Source: Colwellia sp. | GTDB lineage: Bacteria; Pseudomonadota; Gammaproteobacteria; Enterobacterales; Alteromonadaceae | Direction: 5' to 3' | Assembly (NCBI RefSeq): GCF_013215345.1 | Contig: NZ_JABSOV010000031.1 | Coordinates: 1 to 39,890 of the forward strand | DNA length: 39,890 bases | Shown: one piece after another, positions 5,923-34,653 of the stretch | Numbering within the stretch: position 1 is the stretch's first letter | Layout: the number at the start of each line of letters is the position of its first letter | Notes under the pieces: model-generated | Told to the model about the DNA's origin: nothing | Database searches by the model: none | What the model saw: only the letters and a program-made list of their open reading frames with translations | Position numbers and translations under genes: made by a program

Positions 5923-6192
5923 GGTAAATTCACTTAAAGCAATATTAAAACTATAATTGTCGATAGTTTACTGTATGCATGCTAAATCACCAAATACCCA
6001 ACAGCTTTTTTATTGATCTAACTAGGGGCTGTTGATCTTTCGCGGTTAAATTTTGTTCGCTTCTTTCAAAGAGAGTAAAGCGTTTTATTCGCGGCGAGAC
6101 TTGTGTAGCCATTTACTTGTCATCAAATGGCACCAAATGGCACTAATAAATGTAATAAAACAACAATAATGAAATAAAGTTACACAATCGAC

Positions 6193-6221
6193 TTGCAAAA
6201 ATAGAGTTTCTACTCTATACT
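6193..6221 (+). promoter_or_regulatory. Sigma70-like promoter of sRNA A with embedded inverted repeat
   Basis: TTGCAA (6193-6198), a 17-base spacer, then TATACT (6216-6221): five of six consensus matches at the -10 and optimal spacing. An inverted repeat ATAGAG-N6-CTCTAT occupies 6201-6218, so its right arm overlaps the -10. The same dyad sits in the same register in the sRNA B promoter. It is probably an operator, which is an inference. Confidence 0.7.
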
Positions 6222-6227
6222 TCTTGT

Positions 6228-6320
6228 CGTTCCCTTATACGGACGCTTGTTGTAATAATTGAATATTCTAGCTTTCCTCATAGCTAACTCACCGATAGCC
6301 TTTGCTATCGGTTTTTTTTT
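6228..6320 (+). ncRNA. Predicted small RNA A (about 93 nt)
   Basis: The transcript predicted from the promoter at 6193-6221 would start near 6228. It folds into a 5' hairpin (CGTTC 6228-6232 with GGACG 6241-6245), then an unpaired A/U-rich stretch containing TTGTAATAATT (6250-6260), then a hairpin TAGCT/AGCTA (6269-6273, 6282-6286) with loop TTCCTCAT, and an intrinsic terminator at 6292-6320. No plus-strand gene lies on either side, so an orphan transcript is the simplest reading. It is related to the element at 30465-30574. I do not recognise the family. It ends 35 bases from the 3' end of the convergent GGDEF gene. Confidence 0.68.
6292..6320 (+). terminator. Intrinsic terminator of sRNA A
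   Basis: Perfect 8-bp stem CCGATAGC (6292-6299) with GCTATCGG (6304-6311), a four-base loop and nine T residues (6312-6320). On the minus strand no T-run follows the stem, so it works only in the plus direction, where no protein gene precedes it. Confidence 0.9.
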
Positions 6321-30027: not shown

Positions 30028-30309
30028 ATGTCTTCTGTTATTAAGAACACCAAGCATTTAACAAGTGAGAATGAAGTGGTTTTAGACGAACGCAGGCACG
30101 AATGTCCTAGTGAACATGCATTATGGTCGAAACTTAGTGTTGCCCAGCAAGCTTCTGTAAGTTCAATGCATAATTATGGTTATCAGCTTAGTTTTATTCG
30201 CAACGAAGCTGAAGAAATGCTGGTAGTCATGCTACTTAATGAAGCGGTTATTGTTATTGATGATGAAGGCACTATTGATACTCAAGTTAGTATGGATATC
30301 CGAAAGTAG
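30028..30309 (+). CDS. Small conserved-looking protein of unknown function
   Basis: 93 residues, soluble, acidic-rich at both ends, no signal peptide. The middle reads LWSKLSVAQQASVSSMHNYGYQLSFIRNEAEEMLVVMLLNEAVIVIDDEGTID: a short helix followed by three or four beta strands. I do not recognise a domain, though I have an impression of similar small proteins in related marine bacteria. It lies 174 bases after the receiver-GGDEF-EAL gene and has its own plausible promoter. Codon use is like its neighbours, so it looks like a real gene. Confidence 0.7.
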   Translation: MSSVIKNTKHLTSENEVVLDERRHECPSEHALWSKLSVAQQASVSSMHNYGYQLSFIRNEAEEMLVVMLLNEAVIVIDDEGTIDTQVSMDIRK

Positions 30310-30385: not shown

Positions 30386-30399
30386 GTGATCCAAATCAA
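30386..30399. promoter_or_regulatory. Possible FNR-type binding site upstream of sRNA B
   Basis: GTGATCCAAATCAA matches TTGAT-N4-ATCAA at nine of ten defined positions. Its centre lies about 72 bases before the predicted start of sRNA B, a spacing used by FNR-class activators. The evidence is motif match and position only. Confidence 0.4.
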
Positions 30400-30428
30400 T
30401 GAAATAGAGCTAATACTTTATAAATAGC

Positions 30429-30458
30429 TTTACTTATATAGAGTTCTTGCTCTATAGT
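30429..30458 (+). promoter_or_regulatory. Promoter of sRNA B with the same embedded dyad as sRNA A
   Basis: TATAGT (30453-30458) is a good -10; the -35 is weak (TTTACT, 30429-30434, 18-base spacer), which suits an activated promoter. An inverted repeat TATAGAG-N6-CTCTATA at 30437-30456 overlaps the -10 by the same offset as in the sRNA A promoter. Confidence 0.62.
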
Positions 30459-30464
30459 ACACTT

Positions 30465-30574
30465 GTTCTTAAGCGAACACTTATTGTAATAATTTTTTGT
30501 AGCTTCCCCATAAGCTGATATGCCGGTGTAGTTCTTAACTATCTAATAGTAAAGAAAATGACATCGGCTTTTTT
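30465..30574 (+). ncRNA. Predicted small RNA B (about 110 nt), related to sRNA A
   Basis: Starts near 30465. It has a 5' hairpin (GTTC 30465-30468 with GAAC 30475-30478), the conserved TTGTAATAATT (30484-30494, preceded by CTTA against CTTG in sRNA A), a hairpin AGCTT/AAGCT (30501-30505, 30512-30516) with loop CCCCAT, and a long terminator (30522-30574). Order, spacing and key segments match sRNA A, but the terminator stem is much longer and different in sequence. I do not recognise the family. It might instead be an unusual 3' region of the upstream small gene, but its own promoter argues against that. Confidence 0.65.
30522..30574 (+). terminator. Long-stem intrinsic terminator of sRNA B
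   Basis: GCCGGTGT (30522-30529) pairs with ACATCGGC (30561-30568) with one G-U pair; inside, TTCTTAACTAT pairs with ATAGTAAAGAA with one mismatch around the loop CTA. A T6 run follows (30569-30574). Confidence 0.83.
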
Positions 30575-32764: not shown

Positions 32765-33451
32765 TTAATTCTGAAAATCATCGGGTAAGATATTTTCATC
32801 TTCATCGCCGGAATCAGTTGCTTCAGGCAAGTCATAATCTTCCGCTTCTTGTTCAAGCCAATCACAAATAATGGCATCGGCTTGTTCTTTGCCGGTATAT
32901 TTTAGTGATGAAAAAGCTTGTACTCGAATATCAGCATTTAATGGTGCTAAGGCTTTCTTAACGCTAAGCACTTCAGCGCTACGTTTACCTTGTGATAACT
33001 TGTCACATTTAGTCAACAAAACTAACATAGCTAATTCGCTATCTGCTGCCCATTGAATTAAATCCATGTCTAAGTCTTTAAGTGGATGACGAATATCCAT
33101 TAAAATGACGATGCCTTTTAAGCACTGACGTTTTTCTAAATATTCACCCAGTGCTTTTTGCCATTTTTTCTTCATTTCTAATGGCACTTTGGCAAAGCCA
33201 TAACCTGGCAAATCGATTAGGCGGCGATCCTCTGCTACTTCAAACACGTTGATAAGCTGAGTTCGACCGGGAGTTTTACTTATGCGCGCCAATCCTCTTT
33301 GATTGGTTAGCGTATTTAAGGCACTAGATTTACCTGCATTAGAGCGGCCCGCAAAGGCGACTTCAATACCAGAATCAGCTGGTAAACGACGAATATCTGG
33401 GGCGCTAAGGGTAAAGGCGGCTTTAGTTAAATGTATCTTTGTAGAAGACAA
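32765..33451 (-). CDS. engB: EngB/YihA ribosome-biogenesis GTPase
   Basis: GTPase needed for large ribosomal subunit assembly and normal division. G1 is [10 protein letters not shown]2 region KTPGRTQ, G3 DLPGYG and G4 TKCD, all intact. The frame runs back to an ATG at 33628, which would give a 287-residue protein with an odd Lys/Cys-rich leader reaching towards the cytochrome gene. Alignment of [28 protein letters not shown] with E. coli EngB suggests TTG at 33451 (228 residues, starting [13 protein letters not shown]) as the real start, though no strong ribosome site is seen. The tail is acidic. Divergent from the c-type cytochrome, a common neighbourhood in gammaproteobacteria. Confidence 0.93.
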
Positions 33452-33696
33452 GGGCTTAACTCGTTTAAAATTTTCGTCATTATAGCGTTTTTCTTCAACA
33501 AATATTATTAAAAAAATGCACAAAACAGCGAAATCACAGTTTTTTTTGTCTGATTTTTTCTTCTCCACTATTACACGGGGCCAATATTCGTGTAAAATGC
33601 CGACACATCCATCATACTTTTTTATCATTTTTTAATTAGATAGCTATTATAATATTCAAAAAGCTAAGTGATTAATGACAAGCAGAGAGCAACTCA

Positions 33697-34653
33697 ATGA
33701 AAAAAATTATCTTTTCGCTACTTGTAGCCTTAAGTTCCGTAAGTGCTGTACAAGCCGCAGATGCTAACGCAGGTAAAGAAAAATCAGTCACTTGTAGCGC
33801 CTGTCACGGTCCTACAGGTGTTAGTGCAAGTCCTATGTTCCCTAATCTTGCCGGTCAAAATGATGCTTATATCATTAAGCAATTAAAAGATTTTAAATCA
33901 GGCGCACGTACCGATGCCATGATGGCGCCTATGGCGGCTAACTTATCTGAAGCAGATATGGCTGATTTAGCGGCTCATTTTTCTGGTTTACCTAGTGCCA
34001 ACGAGCAAGCGGCAGCATCAGCAAGTACTGGCTCTAGTACAGATGCAGCGCCAGTAAGTGCTCCAGCTGCCGGTAATGTTGAAATTGTCGCTTCTACCCC
34101 AGCATCAGCAATTTATGCAGGTAATGTAGCAGCCGGTAAAGATAAAGCACTAGCCTGTGCCGCTTGTCACGGCGCTGACGGTAACAGCTTAGTACCTATG
34201 TACCCTAGCCTTGCGGGTCAAAGTGCTAACTATATTGCTAAACAACTAGCTGATTTCAAATCAGGCGATCGTAACGACCCAGTAATGGCGGGTATGGTTG
34301 CAGCGTTATCGAAAGAAGACATGAACGACTTAGCCGCTTTCTTTGCTGTACAAAGCAAAAATGCAGGTACTGGCGAGTCAAATGAAGTTGGACATAAATT
34401 ATACATTGGCGGCGATGCAGATAAAGGTGTTACCGCTTGTATTGCTTGTCATGGTGTTGCAGGTAAAGGCATGAAACAAGCCGGCTTTCCAAGTATTACT
34501 GGTCAAAGTAAAGATTACTTGAAAAAGCAACTTGCTAGCTTCCGTGACGGCAGTCGTGGTAATGATAACAATGGTATTATGCGTAACATAGCCATTAAAT
34601 TATCCGATGCTGATATTGAAGCGGTTGCACAATATATCACGTCATTAAAATAA
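33697..34653 (+). CDS. Three-haem cytochrome c, c4-like
   Basis: 318 residues. Signal peptide with cleavage after AVQA (residue 20), so the protein is periplasmic. Three CxxCH haem-binding sites: CSACH (33-37), CAACH (154-158) and CIACH (248-252). Each starts a c553/c4-type domain with a downstream methionine ligand candidate; domains 1 and 2 are alike (NLAGQ/SLAGQ, DFKSGAR/DFKSGDR, MAPMAA/MAGMVA). Domains 2 and 3 look like a normal diheme cytochrome c4 of ~200 residues; domain 1 plus an Ala/Ser-rich linker (about 100-140) is extra. Likely an electron carrier to terminal oxidases. Divergent from engB as c4 genes usually are. Confidence 0.92.
   Translation: MKKIIFSLLVALSSVSAVQAADANAGKEKSVTCSACHGPTGVSASPMFPNLAGQNDAYIIKQLKDFKSGARTDAMMAPMAANLSEADMADLAAHFSGLPSANEQAAASASTGSSTDAAPVSAPAAGNVEIVASTPASAIYAGNVAAGKDKALACAACHGADGNSLVPMYPSLAGQSANYIAKQLADFKSGDRNDPVMAGMVAALSKEDMNDLAAFFAVQSKNAGTGESNEVGHKLYIGGDADKGVTACIACHGVAGKGMKQAGFPSITGQSKDYLKKQLASFRDGSRGNDNNGIMRNIAIKLSDADIEAVAQYITSLK

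Follow-up and report, generated by a model that had tools for sequence, protein, structure and literature searches.

The window, a stretch of 39,890 nt from a Colwellia sp. contig, holds two intergenic elements on the plus strand, A and B. Both consist of a promoter, a short 5' hairpin, a conserved linker, a hairpin with a C-rich loop and a terminator, in that order. A sequence-only reading had proposed them as a twin small-RNA family, and all of these parts were present at both loci where it had placed them. The position at the spf locus, the probable HexR box, the palindrome in both promoters and the largely conserved one-base loop difference, all described below, go beyond that reading. The features considered here are the following.

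6151..6165, plus strand: second HexR-like box, TGTAATAAAACAACA, 13/15
6170..6184, plus strand: HexR-like box, TGAAATAAAGTTACA, 13/15 to TGTAATWWWATTACA
6193..6221, plus strand: A promoter (-35 TTGCAA, spacer 17, -10 TATACT), kept in relatives
6202..6217, plus strand: proximal palindrome TAGAGTTTCTACTCTA, operator-like, in the A spacer and touching the -10
6228..6320, plus strand: sRNA A, predicted start; fold, conservation, covariance model and covariation
6228..6245, plus strand: A 5' hairpin
6246..6260, plus strand: A conserved linker, CTTGTTGTAATAATT
6269..6286, plus strand: A C-rich-loop hairpin, loop around CCTC
6291..6312, plus strand: A terminator, followed by a T-run
30386..30399, plus strand: FNR-like box GTGATCCAAATCAA upstream of B
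30405..30420, plus strand: distal palindrome TAGAGCTAATACTTTA upstream of B
30429..30458, plus strand: B promoter (-35 TTTACT, spacer 18, -10 TATAGT), kept in relatives
30439..30454, plus strand: proximal palindrome TAGAGTTCTTGCTCTA, touching the B -10
about 30460..30574, plus strand: sRNA B, predicted start; fold, conservation, covariance model and covariation
30464..30479, plus strand: B 5' hairpin
30480..30494, plus strand: B conserved linker, CTTATTGTAATAATT
30500..30517, plus strand: B C-rich-loop hairpin, loop CCCC
30522..30568, plus strand: B terminator, a long hairpin followed by a T-run
32765..33628, minus strand: engB/yihA (TIGR03598 above cut-off), marks the right side of the spf locus; distance to B 2.2 kb
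33697..34653, plus strand: cytochrome c type gene (NCBIfam matches below cut-off), which follows engB at the spf loci of relatives

Both genes flanking A lie on the opposite strand, as had been stated, and an ABC-transporter gene on the same strand as B lies ~290 bp past the B terminator. A 93-aa open frame upstream of B (30028-30309, plus strand) had no Pfam match at E 1e-5. On reading the sequence, we rejected a coding role for the conserved stretch; in A it reads TTG-TTG-TAA, which leaves no surviving frame that begins there.

The two linkers are identical at 14/15 bases, in agreement with the original claim, and the 15-mer with R at the variable base matched the 4.24-Mb assembly exactly at A and B only. 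At one mismatch there were at least eight places among the matches listed, and at up to two mismatches the count (59+49) was barely above that of a reversed-pattern control (50+46). The loops of A and B also differ by a single base (CCUC versus CCCC). Both elements folded more stably than expected (z = -3.84 for A and -3.65 for B), with 0/200 dinucleotide shuffles of each equally stable.

The promoters had been called strong. Their hexamers are present and conserved, but by themselves they occur at chance level (two found versus 2.2 expected for A, one versus 2.3 for B); the weight of the promoter evidence is their conservation, not the hexamer matches. Hairpins with T-runs likewise stand at the end of both elements as described, but a mechanical terminator scan recovered that of A and missed that of B, a long hairpin.

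Conservation and covariation of A and B

We built a covariance model (R1) from 15 A rows. Of 60 rows, five with wrongly trimmed ends were left out and 50 distinct ones remained; 30 of these served in one analysis and 15 in the model. Across the taxonomic family, R1 matched 53/147 genomes, spread over 19/52 genera; 42 of the matched genomes gave exactly two matches. One of the matches, in G082, is probably false; it lies away from polA in a genome that has the Spot 42 signature after polA. Within the genus, window's own genome included, an A-type copy was found in 35/37 genomes (G021 was left out of the 36 matched, its match being a B copy) and a B-type copy in 34/37. In 24 genomes from other families of the order, there were only short weak matches, in one genome with the A query and in four with the B query. 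A pattern scan of 84,980 species matched 91 stretches. The 80 listed came mostly from Colwellia, Cognaticolwellia, Litorilituus, Thalassotalea and Thalassomonas, or from records labelled Colwelliaceae or Alteromonadaceae; the exceptions were the clearly unrelated Vallitalea, Paludibacteraceae and Methanodesulfokora and one unclassified gammaproteobacterium. One genome (G195) carries three tandem copies of a B-like RNA (L249:6723-7334).

Conservation of the 15-nt segment in relatives had been set beforehand as a test of the proposal, and the segment is conserved. Cross-matches between A and B in many genomes bear out the proposed homology, and we rejected chance similarity on the rarity of the 15-mer and the conservation of both copies. 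By these sequence comparisons, A and B are paralogous sRNA genes.

Covariation was assessed in 93 model-aligned copies (89 distinct), in an alignment fitted to the structure, which favours pairing. Standard pairs filled 97.3% of cells, and 10/19 pairs showed changes on both sides. The covariation score was reached by 0/500 shuffles, and structures slid along the alignment paired in only 19.5-46.6%. The 5' hairpin (pair 1 UA, CG, UG; pair 2 GC, AU) and the terminator covary, in keeping with the expectation of compensatory change in the stems; the central stem, AGCU...AGCU, is nearly invariant and therefore too constant for covariation to judge. The sequence of this stem, much of its loop and UUGUAA are among the most constant parts of the element.

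Comparison with known RNA families

The claim that the twins match no known family held against Rfam. With matches taken up to E 5, none in the window attained the gathering score of its family, and seven related loci gave two tRNAs only. The scores that did appear fell below gathering: Hrs13 (RF02631) at 21.6/52 bits, MicX (RF01808) at 20/75 and the Betaproteobacteria toxic sRNA (RF02278) at 20/50. Of these low-scoring families Hrs13 fits A best, by way of the terminator and a few bases at the 5' end. We therefore rejected known Rfam families, all below gathering score, as the identity of A or B.

The Spot 42 model (RF00021, gathering score 80 bits) matched nowhere in the window at E values up to 5, nor at the twins in the 37 same-genus genomes. 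The 5' end of Spot 42, GUAGGGUA, was present in 30/30 Spot 42 loci inspected and two further ones, and in 0/93 twin rows. Judged by sequence and model, A and B are not Spot 42; judged by predicted structure, they are not sX13. In the literature searched, no paper joined Colwelliaceae with sRNAs and, going by titles and the starts of abstracts, none of those naming Colwellia, small RNA and Hfq dealt with Colwellia sRNAs; we found no description of the twin family.

The spf locus in relatives

The gene for Spot 42, spf, is flanked by polA and engB, and past engB comes a cytochrome c gene; the twins are placed likewise in some relatives. In the window, B is separated from engB by the ABC-transporter gene; in the assembly that contains the window, polA and the twins are on different contigs, and in G032 they are also far apart. 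Elsewhere, the gap between polA and engB itself holds one or two copies (G172, G111 and G145), or a copy lies 0.1-1.2 kb past polA (G159, G087 and G105). G028 has the two copies in tandem, 626 bp apart, in the order ubiE-A-B-engB, and G061 has a decayed copy after polA plus two other copies. These positions suggest that the pair arose in tandem in the spf slot and, if the direction of change is as we infer, was split up afterwards by rearrangement. Flanking genes vary among genomes and the element is retained.

RF00021 matched in 34/147 family genomes, only one of them above the Rfam gathering score. On inspection of all 34, 32 lay downstream of polA and had GTAGGGTA at the 5' end; engB followed in 30 of these 32 loci. 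The only RF00021 matches in twin-carrying genomes were in G036 and G187, and neither is spf: both are weak, the former sits between pyrH and tsf, and the latter has no polA, engB or GTAGGGTA nearby. We rejected both as Spot 42. Among the genomes examined none carried both the twins and Spot 42, and this mutual exclusion was strengthened by the last three RF00021 matches, of which two were true spf and one was not.

The stretch after polA was also sampled in 30 chosen genomes (1,500 bases each, 233 in one). A twin was called on two or more of three features (anchor, loop and palindrome), and three bare anchor matches were excluded. The Spot 42 5' end followed polA in nine genomes and a twin in nine; 12 showed neither RNA by pattern, and no genome had both.

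Other forms were also observed after polA. Several sister genera (L276 and L279-L293) have a short Spot 42, ~81-87 nt in most, in which the 5' half is kept and leads directly into the terminator. At seven loci (L304, L305, L307, L309, L313, L317 and L331), RF02837 (anti-hemB) or RF00519 (suhB/mmgR) matched below gathering score within ~350 nt after polA, and at four of these loci the 5' end of Spot 42 is present there as well. More than one type of RNA may occupy the slot, or the two families may resemble Spot 42 by chance. G078 (L316) and G096 (L333) have a hairpin ATAGC(C/T)TCTCCCCA(A/G)ATT(T)GCTAT after polA, in G096 together with TAGAGTAAAGACTTTA at a promoter-like place, and both are possible intermediates. 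In G032 the polA locus has a match to RF02675 (Ysr141) at its edge (L311:1-170), at 59 bits versus a gathering score of 196.

Promoter regions of A, B and Spot 42

We named the boxes upstream of A by their likeness to TGTAATWWWATTACA, which we take to be the HexR motif consensus. Many other Colwellia carry TGAAATAAAATTACA at the HexR-like box, and this sequence is identical to one upstream of gltB in the window's own genome. At one mismatch or fewer, HexR-type motifs are not over-represented in that genome (six sites per strand versus nine for a reversed control), and three of the six lie in the zwf-hexR gap, in the gapA-gnd gap and upstream of gltB. The regulator gene beside zwf is HexR by NCBIfam. 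In Shewanella, HexR is described as regulating central sugar metabolism globally and responds to KDPG, a sugar-breakdown intermediate (PMC3223726).

The upstream region and the RNA body were compared separately with Spot 42, using 24 Spot 42 rows and 55 twin rows; these rows are related, so that the z-values given here are overstated. Over 85 bases, the upstream region of A resembled that of Spot 42 (mean best score 36.4 versus 22.0 for shuffles), with 27/29 bases identical in the best pair, whereas the region upstream of B did not (21.4 versus 21.0). The element that A and Spot 42 share here, TGTAATTTAATTACA, fits the HexR consensus assumed above. Among the RNA bodies, A scored 22.5 versus 19.9 for shuffles (z 5.1) and B 20.4 versus 20.0 (z 1.1); the best matches to Spot 42 were 13/14 bases for A and 13/13 for B, the latter in the 3' part of one copy. 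Since neither body is convincingly similar to Spot 42, the case for descent from spf is one of locus and promoter. By this comparison A keeps the spf upstream region, and its box is a probable HexR box.

In E. coli, Spot 42 is controlled by carbon status via CRP-cAMP; upstream of A there is a HexR-type box instead. Spot 42 of sister genera has a HexR-type box and a -35 upstream, like A, which suggests HexR, rather than CRP, as its controller there. In the literature searched, the papers that join HexR and Spot 42 concern Neisseria.

Promoter elements were then counted in 117 distinct CCYC-loop copies from 130 loci scanned, with a well-formed stem required and other loops excluded; 51 had the loop CCUC and 66 CCCC. 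The HexR box was present in 45/51 CCUC-loop copies versus 6/66 CCCC-loop copies (at most one in any shuffle); the six include the A-position copies of G023 and G190, which have the loop CCCC. The proximal palindrome, TAGAG-N6-CTYTA, was found in 43/51 CCUC-loop and 64/66 CCCC-loop copies, that is, at 9/10 or better in 107 of the 117. The distal palindrome, counted over a wide range with a slightly loose pattern, was found in 2/51 CCUC-loop versus 49/66 CCCC-loop copies, with ~0.25 expected from mononucleotide shuffles. Where both palindromes were present in CCCC-loop copies, their spacing was 22 bp in 24/31 outside Colwellia and 34 bp in 13/16 within it. Of the four strict palindrome sites in the window's own genome, two are those of the twins, a third is intragenic and the fourth is in a gap on the downstream side of a gene.

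The box at 30386-30399 matches at 9/10 TTGATN4ATCAA, presumably an FNR-type box. At 9/10 it occurred in 20/29 Colwellia CCCC-loop copies, in 1/37 CCCC-loop copies elsewhere and in 0/51 CCUC-loop copies. Its presence upstream of B, almost only in Colwellia, suggests oxygen control of B. Taken together, the counts indicate that the one-base loop difference and the promoter inputs largely travel together across genera.

Proposed mechanism and related systems

Spot 42 consists of a 5' hairpin, an unpaired linker, a hairpin and a terminator, and the twins have the same order. Spot 42 pairs with metabolic mRNAs in an Hfq-dependent manner; of this the twins show only the AU-rich linker and a U-tail. 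They further differ from Spot 42 in having no family score, no GUAGGGUA, two diverged copies, a C-rich loop and promoter palindromes.

Three described systems offer likenesses. In Aliivibrio salmonicida, VSsrna24 is a second sRNA beside spf, 262 nt downstream and under separate control, being glucose-repressed; at ~60 nt, it is described as accompanying rather than replacing Spot 42 (PMC3295665), and we liken it to the twins by that description. sX13 of Xanthomonas lies beside polA, and its C-rich loops are reported to repress mRNAs with G-rich motifs near start codons, some at the ribosome-binding site (PMC3771888). It is likewise compared by description: sX13 has three stem-loops, each with a C-rich loop (4C/5C), and is Hfq-independent (PMC3771888), whereas the twins have one C-rich loop. 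Adjacency to polA is shared by the twins in some relatives but not in the window's own genome. The Neisseria NgncR_162/163 are described as adjacent sibling sRNAs in which a loop and an unpaired stretch block the ribosome-binding sites of metabolic targets (PMC9973317). These siblings are 78% identical to each other (PMC9973317), and we liken them to the twins by description, not by sequence or locus.

By analogy, the twins may work like a C-rich-loop regulatory RNA in the position of Spot 42, duplicated and taking its place. HexR would control A, a palindrome-binding protein would control both A and B, and in Colwellia an FNR-type regulator would add oxygen control to B. The C-rich loops, UUUCCUCAU in A and UUCCCCAU in B, would pair with G-rich ribosome-binding sites (GAGG for the A loop, GGGG for the B loop) and block translation, after the modes described for sX13 and the Neisseria siblings, and the AU-rich UUGUAAUAAUU linker and the U-tail are putative Hfq sites. 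With two loops, the target sets would overlap but be distinct; one ancestral carbon-response RNA, we propose, would thus have become two with separate inputs. Expression of the twins, their use of Hfq, their control by HexR and FNR and the pairing of their loops with ribosome-binding sites are all predictions of this model.

We searched the window's own genome for 12-nt complements of the loops at one mismatch or fewer and obtained 26 matches, none at a convincing ribosome-binding site. Two of them are A and B; of the remaining 24, 21 lay inside open frames of at least 100 codons. Three matches overlap or precede a possible internal start. The lack of a convincing 12-nt target means that targets probably pair over shorter stretches, or that the pairing idea is wrong.

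Alternative explanations

Our preferred reading, which we consider reasonably probable, is that A and B are paralogous trans-acting sRNAs at the spf locus that replaced Spot 42 in the Colwelliaceae lineage. By comparison, the twins are conserved, structured, terminator-ended and at or near the polA-engB locus. The closest competitor makes them true descendants of Spot 42 whose bodies diverged beyond recognition and which still act on the same mRNAs through the Spot 42 regions. It draws on the locus and upstream region shared with spf, on the variation of Spot 42 itself in sister genera (forms of ~83 nt) and on the A body scoring above shuffles, in related, non-independent rows. Set against these are the failure of RF00021 at the twins in 37/37 same-genus genomes, the absence of GUAGGGUA from every twin row and the B body at chance, and we regard such descent as rather unlikely. 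Leader or attenuator RNAs of neighbouring genes would be suggested by the same-strand ABC-transporter gene past B, but A has both its neighbours on the opposite strand, neighbours differ among genomes while the element is kept, and A and B each end in a terminator of their own; this we consider very improbable.

Nearly as improbable, in our estimate, is that the twins serve mainly as sponges that titrate a protein (CsrA or Hfq) and not through mRNA pairing. The AU-rich linker is indeed a long conserved unpaired stretch, but the repeated GGA motifs of CsrB-type RNAs are absent, and the one-base loop difference between the paralogues, for which a sponge has no need, holds across genera, with exceptions. 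As for control, the promoter palindrome could be a chance or regulator-free feature of the DNA and expression constitutive: the genome has two strict sites outside the twins, and no regulator was identified. The frequency of the proximal palindrome (107/117 copies) and of the distal one in CCCC-loop copies (49/66, mostly at fixed spacing, ~0.25 expected) makes this improbable too, if less so than a sponge.

Implications

Replacement of Spot 42 by the paralogous twins can be extended to a more general idea, which we hold tentatively and at somewhat less than even confidence. The polA-engB slot would be a standing socket for an sRNA of the carbon response, in which the promoter and regulator site are kept and the sRNA body is exchanged. 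In Colwelliaceae, Spot 42 would have given way to a C-rich-loop RNA that was duplicated, yielding two regulons set apart by a seed base (CCUC/CCCC) and by inputs: HexR for A, and the paired palindrome, with FNR in Colwellia, for B.

Whether polA loci elsewhere likewise encode sRNAs of similar action was left open by the sX13 authors (PMC3771888). The twin family would answer this for many marine species, including cultured ones, in which the locus and promoter are kept, Spot 42 was not found and a duplicated C-rich-loop RNA stands instead. With this system one can ask how a global regulatory RNA comes to be replaced, and how a change of one base in the seed keeps the regulons of two paralogues apart.
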